Below, one piece after another: positions 39,762-45,818 of a DNA stretch of 46,463 bases. The translations under genes were made by a program, and so were the position numbers. The notes beneath the pieces are model-generated. The model worked only from the letters and a program-made list of their open reading frames with translations, ran no database searches and was not told the DNA's origin. Positions within the stretch are counted from its first letter, which is position 1. Every line of letters begins with the position of its first letter. Origin of the DNA: Acidimicrobiia bacterium. GTDB lineage: Bacteria; Actinomycetota; Acidimicrobiia; Spongiisociales; UBA5794. Location of the stretch: NCBI GenBank assembly GCA_030066875.1, contig JASJAS010000035.1, forward strand, positions 1 to 46,463, written 5' to 3'.

Positions 39762-41690
39762 CTAGGAAGACTCGATGGCACCCATCGTAGGAGCCACCAG
39801 CGATCGTGCTTGCCCAAGGAAGTCCTGGATCACACCGGCCACAGGTTCGGCTGCCCCCAATGCCGGGCTTCCCGCCGCGGGGCGATAGCGTGCCACCGCG
39901 TCTGCGATATCGCTGAGCCCGCCCACGGTGGGGGTTGCGATGACGCTGTCCAACTCGGCGGGAGCGGCGACCACATCACCAGGTTGGGGGAATGTTGGAA
40001 TCCCGGGCGTTGCACTCCCCGAGTTGTGGAACAGACCGGCCCACAACTGCGGTCCGAATTCAATGGTGGCCGTAGCTCCATCGTTTCTCGCGTACTGGGG
40101 GTCACCGCCGGTTCCGACAATGAGGTTGCTGCTGATATGAACATCGTCATTGCCGCTCGATCCCCCCATGGCGTTGTTGCCGTTCTGCAGGCGGAAGACG
40201 GCGAAGTTGCTCTGCGTCACGATCGTGTTGTTGTAAACCTGGGCCCTGTTGACCCCTCTGATCTCGACAGCCGAATCGTCGAAGTCGGCGATGAGGTTGT
40301 TACGGGCTACCTGGTCGACACCCTCCCAGTTCGAGTGTGCAGGGTTCCAGAATGCGGCGCCTGTGTTGCCGCCCAGCTGGAGCGCAGCGTTGCCCCGGAT
40401 TCCGCGGATGAGGTTGCCCTCTATCAGGATGTCGGATGAGCCACCCTTGAAGAAGATGCCGTGGCTGCCTTGGGCGTTGTCATGAATGTCGTTACCAATC
40501 ACAACTGCACCCGAGACACCGACGCCATCGATCACTGCGTTGTTGATCGCTTCACTGACGTCGTTCCCCTCGAGACAGATGGTCCCTACACCGGCGTTTG
40601 CGTTGTTGTTGCGGTTGATCTTGATGGCCGCCCCCGGTCCCCAGGCCAGATCGTGAATGACCGAATCGCCAACATAGACATGGTGAACATCACTGGATCC
40701 CGGTGCGATGTGAAGGTTGTTCCCACCGCCGTTGCGAATGTCGACGCCGGTCAACGATACGTACGAACCGCTGATGCGGAACTCACCACCGCCGTCCAGA
40801 TCGATCACCGGGTTGGTCTCGGCGGCCGCCCTGATCTGAATCCATGCGTTGGGGATACCCGATCGGGTAATCACCAGGTTGCCGTTGGGTCGATGAGTAC
40901 CTGCCTGCAACACGATGTGATCACCGGGGCTGGCATCCGCAAAGGCTTCTGCAAGCGTCGGGCTTTGCCCGGGAGTGACGACGATCAGCCGGTTCGGTGC
41001 GGCGCTCGTGTCCGGCCGCACGCAGGTGTCTGCGGTAGAAGGGGGAACCAGGGGCGACAAGCCGAGGGCACGTCCCAAGAACGAGGCCATCTGGTCACGA
41101 CGTACCGGGTCGGTTGGACAGAACAGCGTGTTGGCCGGAGGGTTGCAGCCCAAGGTGACGCCTGCCTGGCGCAGCCGATCGATATCGGCCTCGAAGATCG
41201 ATCCGTCGTCATCGGTGAACCAGTCTCCCTTTCCCGGATCGGCGTAGTCAAACGCCCGCACCAGGAAGGCTGCCATCTGCGCCCTGGTAACCGGGCCGCC
41301 GGGACAGAAGCGATCGTTCGCCGGAGGATTGCAGCCGCGGGTAATCCCGGACGCGGCCAGGGCGTTGATATCGGCCTCGAAGGTCGACCCGTTGTCATCG
41401 GTGAAGTAGTCCGTGACGGATGAAGGAAGGTGGAGCGCTCTCGCCACAAATGCGGCCATTTGACCTCGAGTAACCGCAGTTGCCGGACAGTACCGGTCGT
41501 TGACGGGCGGGTTACATCCGCGAGTAATCCCTTCCTCCCGAATGGCTTCGATGTATCCCTCGTGCACGTTGCCGTCATCGTCGATGAATGAGCCGCCGGG
41601 GAGAAGCTGAGCCGCAGCCGCGACTACACCGAAAAGCGAGAAGAATGCGACGGCAATGAGGCGAGCCGGATGTGATTTCGAGTGAGCCAT
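39762..41690 (-). CDS. Secreted protein with three cysteine-containing SLH-like repeats and a beta-helix domain
   Basis: The 642-aa exoprotein has a signal peptide (MAHSKSHPARLIAVAFFSLF, cleaved near VAAAAQ). Three SLH-like repeats of ~57 aa follow (residues ~33-210), each with FTDD/FIDD, a GIT-GCNPP segment, CP, and VTRGQMAAF-type ending; each repeat carries a cysteine pair. Residues ~230-600 form a right-handed parallel beta-helix (SGSYVSLTGVDIRNGGGNNL; IEGNLIRGIRGNAALQLGG; QVYNNTIVTQSNFAVFRLQN), the fold of pectate lyases and other surface polysaccharide proteins. No catalytic set was identified. SLH-like repeats suggest wall attachment. ATG 41690 begins the signal; a 41801 start adds no credible sequence. 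Confidence 0.88.
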   Translation of the reverse strand: MAHSKSHPARLIAVAFFSLFGVVAAAAQLLPGGSFIDDDGNVHEGYIEAIREEGITRGCNPPVNDRYCPATAVTRGQMAAFVARALHLPSSVTDYFTDDNGSTFEADINALAASGITRGCNPPANDRFCPGGPVTRAQMAAFLVRAFDYADPGKGDWFTDDDGSIFEADIDRLRQAGVTLGCNPPANTLFCPTDPVRRDQMASFLGRALGLSPLVPPSTADTCVRPDTSAAPNRLIVVTPGQSPTLAEAFADASPGDHIVLQAGTHRPNGNLVITRSGIPNAWIQIRAAAETNPVIDLDGGGEFRISGSYVSLTGVDIRNGGGNNLHIAPGSSDVHHVYVGDSVIHDLAWGPGAAIKINRNNNANAGVGTICLEGNDVSEAINNAVIDGVGVSGAVVIGNDIHDNAQGSHGIFFKGGSSDILIEGNLIRGIRGNAALQLGGNTGAAFWNPAHSNWEGVDQVARNNLIADFDDSAVEIRGVNRAQVYNNTIVTQSNFAVFRLQNGNNAMGGSSGNDDVHISSNLIVGTGGDPQYARNDGATATIEFGPQLWAGLFHNSGSATPGIPTFPQPGDVVAAPAELDSVIATPTVGGLSDIADAVARYRPAAGSPALGAAEPVAGVIQDFLGQARSLVAPTMGAIESS

Positions 41691-41730
41691 CTCGCCAGTA
41701 TCGCAACCACGGGGGCCTAACCGGGCTGGC

Positions 41731-42147
41731 TCAATCCCGGTTGCGGACGTGTTCCGCCGTCTGGGCGAGCCGTACCTCGAGATAGCCGCGGAGCGGATCA
41801 CGGACGGCTACATCGTCGAGCGCTTCCCGCATGCAACGCATCCACTCCCGTGCCTCTTCCGCACCGATCGGATAGGGAGCGTGCCGCATGCGGAGCCGGG
41901 GGTGGCCCTTGCGTTGCGTGTACAGCTGGGGCCCGCCCATCCAGCCGCTGAGGAACTCGAACAGATTGCGACGGGAGTTGGAATCGTCGGCCGGGAGCAT
42001 CGCCCGCAGCACAGGTGCCTCGGCATCGATTCTGTCGTAGAACCGATCGACGAGGCGCCGCAGCACACTCTCACCACCGAGTTCGGCGTATGGATTTGGT
42101 TCATCTCCCCAAGGGTGACGACCGGCCGGTTGCGGATCGGGCAACAT
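41731..42147 (-). CDS. glbO: Group II truncated haemoglobin (GlbO type)
   Basis: The 138-aa protein matches trHbO: YAELGGESVLRRLVDRFYDR, FEFLSGWMGGPQLYTQRKGH, PRLRMRHAPYPIGAEEAREW with the proximal His in RHAPYPI and the group II Trp in EAREWMRCM. It binds oxygen or other ligands and is common in actinobacteria. It lies 6 nt after the TPR gene and 40 nt before the SLH-like gene on the same strand. Confidence 0.93.
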   Translation of the reverse strand: MLPDPQPAGRHPWGDEPNPYAELGGESVLRRLVDRFYDRIDAEAPVLRAMLPADDSNSRRNLFEFLSGWMGGPQLYTQRKGHPRLRMRHAPYPIGAEEAREWMRCMREALDDVAVRDPLRGYLEVRLAQTAEHVRNRD

Positions 42148-42723: not shown

Positions 42724-43563
42724 ATGAGCGATGCCAGAACCATGCCCGTTTGCTACCGGCACCCCGACCGGCCGACTTACCTCGCTTGTAGCGAGTGCGG
42801 CCGACACATCTGTCCGGAATGCTCTCACGATGCGCCCGTCGGTCAGAAGTGCCCGGAATGTGTACGCGCCGCGGGCCGTCAGCGGATTGTCAACGCGAGG
42901 AGTGTTACGGCAGGACCGTCGTTTCAGACCAGTCCCGTCGTATTCTCGTTGATCGCTGTCAACGTCGCCATCTACCTAGCGGGTCTGCTGTCCCCGAGCC
43001 TCGAGCTGGAGATGCTGCAGAACTACGCGGCGTGGACCCCGGCCATTGAGGCCGGAGAGTGGTGGCGAGGCCTCAGTGCCGCCTTCCTGCATGGCGGCAC
43101 CATGCACATCCTCTTCAACATGTACTTCCTCTACATATTCGGGCCCCGCCTGGAGCGCCAGGTCGGGTCGGTGGCCTTCTCCGGCATCTATTTGGCCAGT
43201 GCCGCCGGCGGCAGCTTGGCGACCTACCTATTCGGCCCGGCGAACGCCTTGAGCGTTGGAGCCTCCGGAGCCCTCTTCGGTCTATTCGGCGCCTGGCTGT
43301 ATGCGGCATACCGGCAGCGGGGTTCGGCGGCCGGCAGCGCCATGTTCAACCAACTGGGTGCCATCCTGCTGATCAACATGGCGCTCCCTTTGTTCATCCC
43401 GAGGATCGACTGGAGAGCTCACCTCGGAGGCTTGATAACCGGGATCGTTGTGGCATTCCTCTGGGAACAGATCGCCGCCGGGAGTCGGAACGCCCGCCTG
43501 ATCCGGGCAGTAGTTGCGTTCGCAGCTCTCATCGGTCTCCTTGCCTCGCTGGCGATCCTGTAG
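42724..43563 (+). CDS. Rhomboid intramembrane serine protease with N-terminal zinc-binding domain
   Basis: The 279-aa protein starts with a ~45-residue Cys/His-rich domain (YRHPDRPTYLACSECGRHIC, PECSHDAPVGQKCPECVRAA), a zinc ribbon/B-box-like module. The rest is a six-helix rhomboid: SAAFLHGGTMHILFNMYFLY, the catalytic serine in VGASGALFGLFGAWL, and the catalytic His in WRAHLGGLITGIVVAFL. It cleaves membrane proteins within the bilayer. ATG 42724. Confidence 0.95.
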   Translation: MSDARTMPVCYRHPDRPTYLACSECGRHICPECSHDAPVGQKCPECVRAAGRQRIVNARSVTAGPSFQTSPVVFSLIAVNVAIYLAGLLSPSLELEMLQNYAAWTPAIEAGEWWRGLSAAFLHGGTMHILFNMYFLYIFGPRLERQVGSVAFSGIYLASAAGGSLATYLFGPANALSVGASGALFGLFGAWLYAAYRQRGSAAGSAMFNQLGAILLINMALPLFIPRIDWRAHLGGLITGIVVAFLWEQIAAGSRNARLIRAVVAFAALIGLLASLAIL

Positions 43564-43705
43564 TTCGGAGCTGCCTTCTAGCCTCTTCCGGGTCAGTGCC
43601 TGACTAGTCAACTCGCGTATCAGCACGGTGATCTTTAAATACTCCCGATGCCTGCCGATAGGCAGAGTGAGTGGACCCTGAATCCACCGGAAGAAGGCAC
43701 AGTTG

Positions 43706-44359
43706 ATGGACCGCGAGGCCAATCCTCTCGAAGAGATCGAGGACGCTGACCAGGCGGCGGCCGCGATGCGCGCCGAGGCCGCAGAGCAGCTTCAATACGC
43801 GCGCGACCTCGCCAAGCGGGTACGAGCCGAAGCCCTCCACGAACTCGAGGACGCCCGCGAGCGGGTTGCACGAATCGCCGCTCGCGAGGAGGAAATGGCC
43901 GAACGGTGGGCGCAACTCCTCGAGGCCGAGAACGCCCTTGCCGTGTCAAAGGGAGAAGTCGCTGCCGGACCCCCCAGCCTCATCGCTGAGGCCACCGCCG
44001 AAGCTCAACAGATCGTCGCTCGGGCAAACGAAGAGGCTCGACGCATCCGCGAACAGGCCATGCATCTCCTTGCAGTTGCCGAAGGCGAGAAAGCGGAGTC
44101 GCACGAGATCGCCCAGTCCGAAACCGAGAAGGCGGCCGAAGAGGCCGAACGGCTGCGCCGGGAAGCCGAGGCAGAGGCACAGCGGGTTCGCGAAGAGGCC
44201 GAAGCGGCGGCTGCAGCCGGGAGCGAGGACGCCGGCATCTACTCGAAGCGGCGGGGACGCAAGCTGCCGCGGATCGGCGAAAGCGCGTCACACCTCCTCG
44301 CCGAGATGTCGGATCTCAGGGCCAAGTCGGCCGACGAAGAAACCCGCCAGGTCGTCTGA
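43706..44359 (+). CDS. Coiled-coil protein, DivIVA-like in character
   Basis: The ~217-aa protein is nearly all Ala/Glu/Arg helices (DLAKRVRAEALHELEDARER, ATAEAQQIVARANEEARRIR, EKAAEEAERLRREAEAEAQR), ending in a basic SKRRGRKLPRI patch and LLAEMSDLRAKSADEETRQV. It has no signal or membrane segment. It resembles DivIVA/Wag31-type or ATP-synthase-b-like coils in composition only. ATG 43706, next to TTG 43703. The role is unknown; a scaffold is a guess. Confidence 0.75.
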   Translation: MDREANPLEEIEDADQAAAAMRAEAAEQLQYARDLAKRVRAEALHELEDARERVARIAAREEEMAERWAQLLEAENALAVSKGEVAAGPPSLIAEATAEAQQIVARANEEARRIREQAMHLLAVAEGEKAESHEIAQSETEKAAEEAERLRREAEAEAQRVREEAEAAAAAGSEDAGIYSKRRGRKLPRIGESASHLLAEMSDLRAKSADEETRQVV

Positions 44360-44411: not shown

Positions 44412-45710
44412 TTAGCGGTCGTCACCCTGTGGCGGTGACGCGACCAGGTCGAACAGCATCGCAGCCGGCGAATCCGCGATTCGCACCACCCGCATCTCGA
44501 TGCCGTACCACTTGACTCCGCTCTTGGTCTGATTGTTGAGCCAGGCCAGCGCCTTCAGTTGGTCTTCGTGGAGGGCGGCAGACACCAGAGCGACAGACGC
44601 GGCTCCAGACGAGGCCGCCATGCCCAGGGCGCGGCCGAGATCTGAGTCATCGGCAGTTGCCCTCTGCGAGGAAACGACGACTACGTCCTCGCCGTTGTCG
44701 TCGCGGCCGAGAACACCTGTGGCGCTCTTGGTCGTGAACTGGCGCGCGTCGGAGAGACCGGCCCGCAGACCCAGAACGTCCCCGAGTTGCTGCGAATGTG
44801 CCAAGAACCACGGTGCAAAGTCTTCGGCACCCTGGGCCCACACGCTCTCAGGATCAACGAGCTCGAGCGTACCGAAATCCATCATTACCTCCATCGGAGT
44901 GTCAACGGGAGCGGACGGGAGATCACCATCGTCGTCGTCAGGTACGACCTCTGCGGGCTCGACCTGGCCATCGGGCCCGACATGACTCTCACCTTCGAAA
45001 TCACTGTCTACGGCAGACACCTCATTGCCGGGCGCAATACCCGCCATTGCAGGCTCCCCGGGCACTGGTGCGCCCAGATCAGGCTCGGCGGGAACGGCTG
45101 CCTCTTCCATGGCTGCAAGGTGGGCTTCGGCCTCGCCCCACGATTGTTCGGCGCCGACCCGGGCTCTCTCAGAGAACCCGTCGGTCGAGCCGTTGTACTC
45201 CTCCCAGCGGTCGGGGTCGACAGCGATCGGTTCACCCTCAACGTTGACTGATGTGAACGTAGTCGATCCGGCCTCGGGAACGGTGTTCTCTCGAGCCAAT
45301 GGCTCTCCGCCGTCATCCGGCGCTCGCTCTGCCGTGTCCGCCGCCTCGTTTGCGATGTGCTCCTCGGCGACGGAGTCGTCCACCGGCGGGACTTCCTCCT
45401 CATCCGATTCGAGAGTTGCTTCTGACTCGTCGGGGGACGCCTCATCACCGTTCTGGGGAAGGTGTGCAGCCTCGATTCGGGCGACCGACTGCTCGACTTC
45501 CATGACCCGAGCAGCGTGCAGGATGTCACCGCTGGTCACCTTTCCACCTTCGCCGGTGCCGGCCACAACGTCGACATCAATGAGGCCGCTCTCGACGAGC
45601 CGGCGGGCCCGGGGAGACAACTCCTCGAGAATCAGCTGCGGGTTAGACCCGTCGGCCGACGATCTGGCCTGCTCATATGAACTCTTACGGCGACGACGTC
45701 TGCGTGCCAC
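44412..45710 (-). CDS. PSBD (E3-binding) domain fused to degenerate PD-(D/E)XK-like domain
   Basis: The 432-aa protein starts MARRRRRRKSSYEQ; GTG 45710 follows GGAGGAGG by 7 nt. Residues ~31-68 (LSPRARRLVESGLIDVDVVA, GTGEGGKVTSGDIL) match the peripheral subunit-binding domain of 2-oxoacid dehydrogenase E2 chains, but no lipoyl or acyltransferase domain is present. A ~200-residue acidic, disordered-looking linker follows. From ~276 (DFGTLELVDPESVWAQGAED, FAPWFLAHSQQLGDVLGL, GVLGRDDNGEDVVVVSSQ, LKALAWLNNQTKSGVKWYGI) the chain resembles the nuclease-like N-terminal domain of DUF4268-type proteins. Where relatives have a catalytic acid and an E-N-Q pattern, this chain has SATGVLGRD and VVSSQ, so it is probably inactive. 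No partner gene is adjacent. Confidence 0.8.
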   Translation of the reverse strand: MARRRRRRKSSYEQARSSADGSNPQLILEELSPRARRLVESGLIDVDVVAGTGEGGKVTSGDILHAARVMEVEQSVARIEAAHLPQNGDEASPDESEATLESDEEEVPPVDDSVAEEHIANEAADTAERAPDDGGEPLARENTVPEAGSTTFTSVNVEGEPIAVDPDRWEEYNGSTDGFSERARVGAEQSWGEAEAHLAAMEEAAVPAEPDLGAPVPGEPAMAGIAPGNEVSAVDSDFEGESHVGPDGQVEPAEVVPDDDDGDLPSAPVDTPMEVMMDFGTLELVDPESVWAQGAEDFAPWFLAHSQQLGDVLGLRAGLSDARQFTTKSATGVLGRDDNGEDVVVVSSQRATADDSDLGRALGMAASSGAASVALVSAALHEDQLKALAWLNNQTKSGVKWYGIEMRVVRIADSPAAMLFDLVASPPQGDDR

Positions 45711-45818
45711 GGCAACGCCTCCTCCAGACGGCGGTACGAGGTCGGTGATCTACTAAGCAGGATCGGTTCATCGAGACGAGCCCTTGAGCGCTCAGTTTCA
45801 CTGGTTTGGTAACTCTCT
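45711..45818. other. Gap between DsbA-like and PSBD-fusion genes
   Basis: It holds the GGAGGAGG ribosome site of the PSBD gene and one 10-bp palindrome, TGAGCGCTCA (45785-45794), which may be an operator or chance. No clear promoter was found. Confidence 0.3.

Follow-up and report, generated by a model that had tools for sequence, protein, structure and literature searches.

A probable non-catalytic adaptor that unites an E3-binding domain with a pseudo-nuclease in one genus of Acidimicrobiia

Within the window, that is the whole stretch of 46,463 nucleotides of Acidimicrobiia DNA analysed here, one gene joins two domains: an E3-binding or peripheral subunit-binding domain (PSBD), of the kind found in the E2 chains of 2-oxoacid dehydrogenase complexes, and a nuclease-like C-terminal domain (CTD) whose active-site residues have been replaced. 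On balance we regard the product as a maintained, non-catalytic tethered adaptor, a domesticated pseudo-nuclease. The parts are each of a known kind, and it is the combination, together with the domestication of the nuclease half, that appears to be new. The full two-domain protein is present in all of the seven known genomes of the genus, of which the four that bear public names were assembled from metagenomes. From its N-terminus the protein consists of a basic tail, the E3-binding domain, an acidic linker with a central helix, and the pseudo-PD-(D/E)XK domain, laid out as follows.

44412..45710, minus strand: whole gene, 432 amino acids (open reading frame call; orthologues in 7/7 genomes of the genus)
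45720..45725, minus strand: Shine-Dalgarno sequence GGAGGA before the GTG (near-identical arrangement in 7/7 orthologues)
45675..45710, minus strand: basic N-terminal tail MARRR(S)RRRKSSY, residues 1-12 (orthologue alignment)
45465..45629, minus strand: PSBD with extended second helix, residues 28-82, Pfam core 32-64 (PF02817, PDB profile, Foldseek, VIA)
44895..45464, minus strand: acidic Ala/Pro/Gly-rich linker, residues 83-272 (composition, disorder prediction)
45096..45230, minus strand: conserved central linker motif, residues 161-205 (orthologue alignment, model)
44427..44891, minus strand: PD-(D/E)XK domain, predicted to be catalytically dead, residues 274-428 (profiles, model, alignment)

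The reading frame opens with GTG, a start that is supported by the Shine-Dalgarno sequence conserved just upstream in the seven orthologues. These range in length from 432 to 627 residues.

The E3-binding domain and its tethers

The sole Pfam family in the protein is E3_binding (PF02817), which matches residues 32-64 with 26.6 bits (E 7e-6; Pfam cut-off 23.7 bits) and is found in all seven orthologues at E 0.01 or better, the best value being 2.5e-8. This bears out the first-pass annotation, which had placed a PSBD at about residues 31-68. When a profile of the orthologous N-termini was compared with the PDB, the significant matches were PSBDs of E2 chains (best E 4e-4), and the two weakest rows, at E 0.08, were ribosomal L29. 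Structural searches with the PSBD part of the full-length model also lead to E3-binding domains: Foldseek returns 2f60 and 3rnm with a probability of 0.99, its E-values alone being without significance, and VIA-align returns 9h1n with Z 6.2 over 54 residues. The model, built from five sequences and with a confidence of about 78 in this region, places helices at 33-40 and 60-81; the second helix thus runs on to about residue 81. As had been remarked earlier, the rest of an E2 is missing: a Pfam scan of the protein finds neither a lipoyl domain nor the acyltransferase (2-oxoacid_dh catalytic) domain, whereas both are detected in the E2 encoded in the same genome. Described PSBDs belong to E2 or E3BP chains. 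A conserved PSBD without the remainder of E2 points either to docking on E3 or E1 outside the classical complexes or to a new use of the PSBD fold.

Which of these applies is best approached through the residues themselves. The loop is a full E2-type G[TS]GxxG, and the basic residues of helix 1 (R34, R36 and R37) are invariant in the orthologues; charged helix-1 side chains of a PSBD have been described to recruit E3 (PMC9974300). Judged by helix 1, an E3 or E1 subunit is the most plausible type of docking partner, an assignment we make tentatively. The affinity for E3 may be low or absent, since the basic loop residue, an Arg in the recovered E2s, is K, R or S in the orthologues, the motif GRITRKD of the E2s of the genus has become G[KRS]xTSGD (TRKD to TSGD), and helix 1 carries an acidic E40 where most recovered E2s have Ala. 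The last two of these changes make a new partner a serious rival: the domain might keep the E3-binding fold and bind something else, for example the coiled-coil protein encoded next door, as part of a structural scaffold that has nothing to do with 2-oxoacid dehydrogenases. Across the PSBDs of the genus TSGDILHAAR and the extended helix E71-E80 do not vary, while the basic loop residues of E2 are lost or variable, which fits such a repurposing; the literature we found nevertheless gives binding to E1 and E3 as what PSBDs dock on. We consider a repurposed PSBD possible but rather doubtful, and return to it below.

On either side of the PSBD lie two segments of opposite charge. The 12-residue tail carries a charge of +7 and is invariant across the seven orthologues save for a one-residue insertion. 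The linker is long and acidic, as the first-pass annotation had said, with a net charge of −47; its length and sequence vary among orthologues, and it is predicted to be disordered except for central helices. Within it the motif PWEDYNGSTxGFSExAxxGAEQSWGEAEAHLAAM, with a predicted helix at 181-204, forms the third conserved element of the protein besides the PSBD and the CTD. The dN/dS ratios by Nei-Gojobori, which are rough as dS is near saturation, are lowest in the CTD, at about 0.04, and come to 0.10 in the PSBD, 0.14 in the central motif and 0.5-0.6 in the remaining linker.

The basic tail, and a CTD whose fold is that of DNA-cutting enzymes, might also suit a nucleic-acid-binding or nucleoid-associated protein, in which tail and PSBD would bind DNA in the manner of Lsr2 and the dead CTD would hold it uncut. 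The acidity of the linker and of the CTD (net charge about −11 to −15) speaks against this, even if charge alone is weak evidence, because the catalytic relatives share this acidity (−7 to −18 in 47 of the 48 relatives from phage contigs). The complete E2-type loop and the E2s that make up the sequence neighbours in the PDB weigh against it as well. An Lsr2-type reading of the PSBD finds no profile support in Pfam, NCBIfam or the PDB profile search, and no literature was found that joins a PSBD with Lsr2; the earlier suggestion of an Lsr2-like partner is thus not upheld, and DNA binding by the protein appears unlikely.

Fold, active site and history of the C-terminal domain

The CTD (residues 274-427) aligns with the first 150 residues of proteins of 314-380 amino acids from other Acidimicrobiia, whose second half is DUF4268 (PF14088, by Pfam on three of them, L008, L009 and L010). 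Compared with profiles of the N-terminal half of DUF4268 proteins by hhalign, it reaches 99.7% (E 1.5e-25) over 151 columns with zero gaps. PADLOC assigns the relative L008 to PDC-S11, which it lists as a candidate defence system made up of a single gene; the CTD itself matches PDC-S11 at E 1.3e-29 along profile positions 3-155 of 318. DUF4268 was not detected by Pfam in the target, which ends after the nuclease-like N-terminal half. In the literature found, DUF4268 receives a passing mention, as an extra domain of GmrSD homologues (PMC4619093).

In the predicted model (pLDDT 83, 32 sequences) the CTD has a PD-(D/E)XK fold. Its closest solved counterpart is EndoMS/NucS, represented by 5gkj with Z 10.6 and 2.3 Å over 102 residues and by 2vld with Z 9.0, scores that exceed those of unrelated rows. 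With Foldseek alone the CTD has no match at E 0.001 or better, the same EndoMS/NucS structures being ranked without significance, and a PDB sequence search with the CTD relatives gave no match. Both the kinship with the nuclease-like half of DUF4268 proteins and the PD-(D/E)XK fold had been proposed in the first-pass annotation; the profile comparisons agree with the former, and EndoMS/NucS as the best structural match shows the latter call to be right.

The same annotation had located the loss of the catalytic residues at SATGVLGRD and VVVVSSQ, and this is where the alignment puts it. In all seven genomes the helix-A Glu is replaced by G294, the Asp by G332 (the Gly of SATG), the Glu by S347 and the Asn by S348; position 349, a Gln in intact relatives, is K, Q or R across the genus. 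The complete set of helix-A Glu, Asp, Glu, Asn and Gln is intact in 48/48 relatives from viral contigs, and the catalytic residues are nearly always kept in those Acidimicrobiia relatives that have letters at these columns. In addition, a His pair and the Tyr of the next helix, conserved in the relatives, read D, D and M in the target. In EndoMS, according to a simulation study, the Mg site includes Glu132 and Glu179 (PMC6829318), the probable counterparts of the helix-A Glu and the motif Glu. From the replaced residues we infer that the CTD has no nuclease activity. A shifted alignment that masks an intact triad is ruled out, as the profile-profile alignment runs through its 151 columns without a gap.

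There is still the thought that the enzyme remains active with a relocated site, built from the invariant TTKSATG and VVSS[KQR]. Across the genus QFTTKSATGVxGRDD at the former metal site is indeed invariant, and the third motif position keeps a Lys, Gln or Arg, but the acidic metal ligands are gone at all three positions in 7/7 genomes and the alignment offers no obvious replacement. We regard this as the least probable of the readings weighed here.

When did the change occur? In a tree of 75 domains the CTDs of the genus form one clade (support 100/100), whose sister is L008, an intact protein from another family of the order (99/94); given a saturated stem and a long branch, the clade is more secure than the choice of this particular sister. 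The stem measures 3.97 changes per column, and the crown branches measure 0.05-0.17. The pattern is that of a single burst of change that then gave way to strong constraint. Taken with the low dN/dS of the CTD, the long stem and short crown point to a maintained pseudo-nuclease rather than a decaying gene; the same ratios and the intact reading frames in 7/7 genomes rule out a pseudogene. Decay can be seen elsewhere: in other Acidimicrobiia the DUF4268-type nuclease reading frames L020 (G036:C25), L044 (G297:C15) and L055 (G062:C29) are broken by stop codons, as if these copies of the candidate defence gene were decaying.

Outside the genus the fusion was not found among 46 genomes of the family with a profile of PSBD and tail; the matches span the PSBD core only, which is consistent with E2 chains, and those that were translated are E2s or E2-like PSBDs. 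Nor was it found in 296 genomes of the class or 396 of the phylum among the CTD-profile matches read out, which outside the genus are DUF4268-type reading frames or fragments by length and, where scanned with Pfam, contain DUF4268. The genus profile search yielded no CTD loci on viral contigs, and a search of the genus genomes turned up no further DUF4268-type nuclease domain.

This distribution bears on a further idea, a defence decoy or antidote: the dead CTD would heterodimerise with, and poison, active DUF4268/PDC-S11 nucleases of phages or mobile elements. The CTD is homologous to the nuclease part and intact relatives do occur on viral contigs, both of which would suit a decoy. Set against them are the failure to find an intact nuclease in the genus genomes and the setting of the gene, which is under strong purifying selection and lies in a part of the chromosome with conserved synteny, not in a variable island. 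A decoy would also leave the PSBD unexplained, and we consider it very unlikely.

A non-catalytic adaptor, which the first-pass annotation had also proposed, is the most economical reading. The domain pair and the catalytic loss are conserved together throughout the genus, and neither another fold for the PSBD, nor a CTD outside PD-(D/E)XK, nor an intact triad in a shifted alignment emerged. The pattern suggests that a candidate enzyme of phage defence has been turned into an adaptor that does not cut. With its long stem, short crown, lost active site and strong later constraint, it offers a clear case of a candidate defence nuclease becoming a maintained non-catalytic module.

Gene neighbourhood and a possible mode of action

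One candidate partner is encoded next door.

43703..44359, plus strand: coiled-coil protein, 218 amino acids, convergent with the target (family search, alignment)

The gene order rhomboid, coiled-coil gene, target is identical in 7/7 genomes of the genus, and TPR-like and DsbA-like proteins are encoded near the target in most of them. The coiled-coil gene occurs in all seven and in none of 43 other genomes of the family. Its product has no Pfam family; its C-terminal motif YSKRxxRKLPRIGxxAxxxLSxMSxLRA hardly varies within the genus. It matches Scy at 30 bits, against a cut-off of 1040, which probably reflects the coiled coil only. For the repurposed PSBD this neighbour is the second argument, being convergent and adjacent in 7/7 genomes and absent from 43/43 others. 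The joint presence of two genes in one clade may, however, be a single event, and as the whole region is syntenic in the genus, their adjacency adds little.

Further along, 42724-43563 (plus strand) encodes a rhomboid-family protease with a Cys/His-rich N-terminus and a sub-threshold B-box match. A search at E 1e-10 finds it in 45 of 46 family genomes, and outside the genus it often lies beside purine genes; in the sister genera neither the target nor the coiled-coil gene adjoins it, which puts the insertion event beyond reconstruction. At 39762-41801 (minus strand) lies the gene of a 679-residue protein, conserved in the genus, that has a match to S-layer homology; its long remainder looks repeat-like.

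No 2-oxoacid dehydrogenase genes were seen in the target neighbourhoods compared, a point against the adaptor outlined below. In the same genome they lie on another contig (C19), which carries lpd (L028:1111-2481), a SucB-like E2 and a lipB-lipA fusion; that the genome encodes lpd and such an E2 counts in favour of it. The last is a single reading frame of 565 codons for amino acids (L028:3958-5655, equal to G000:C19:11457-13154; LplA-B_cat and Radical_SAM) and follows directly after lpd and the E2 gene.

How might such an adaptor have arisen and work? In the ancestor of one Acidimicrobiia genus, a candidate defence protein of the DUF4268/PDC-S11 type would have been stripped of its metal-binding active site and of the DUF4268 domain at its C-terminus, and the nuclease half would have been fused, via a disordered acidic arm of about 190 residues, to an E2-type PSBD with a basic tail. 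The CTD may now serve as a binding or dimerisation module, for which the coiled-coil protein is one candidate partner. The PSBD would dock on a partner of its own, most plausibly the dihydrolipoamide dehydrogenase (E3) of the genome or E1, and the protein would bring this subunit to something else, much as E3BP or Kgd4/MRPS36 work. Spelled out in full, the idea is that a dead nuclease domain, co-opted from a candidate phage-defence gene, connects an E3 or E1 subunit of a 2-oxoacid dehydrogenase with some other structure of the bacterial cell, perhaps together with the coiled-coil partner. This goes a good deal further than the adaptor reading as such, and we put it forward as speculative.

Comparison with known systems

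We are aware of no described protein built like this, and searches of the open literature found none. Among the known systems that come closest are the DUF4268 (PF14088)/PDC-S11 proteins, whose N-terminal 150 residues are homologous to the CTD. In contrast to them, the target lacks the DUF4268 half, has lost the active site, is fused to a PSBD and is conserved at one syntenic place throughout one genus. The mismatch endonuclease EndoMS/NucS is the closest solved fold, but only its nuclease domain matches, at 16-17% identity, and its catalytic residues are absent from the CTD. RPB5, a subunit of RNA polymerase, has a nuclease-like fold without being a nuclease; its match to the CTD (Z about 6-7.5) lies in the range of common arrangements, and the likeness is one of structure.

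At the other end of the protein, the E2 chains of 2-oxoacid dehydrogenase complexes share the sequence and fold of the PSBD and the logic of a flexible Ala/Pro-rich linker, but the target has neither lipoyl domain nor catalytic core, and its TRKD has become TSGD. With E3BP (protein X) and Kgd4/MRPS36 the likeness is one of concept only, that of a non-catalytic protein tethering E3. E3BP still has its lipoyl domain, along with an E2 core that is dead (PMC6270654), and MRPS36 functionally replaces the PSBD and is without prokaryotic orthologues (PMC9974300). Neither of them carries a nuclease-like domain, unlike the protein described here.
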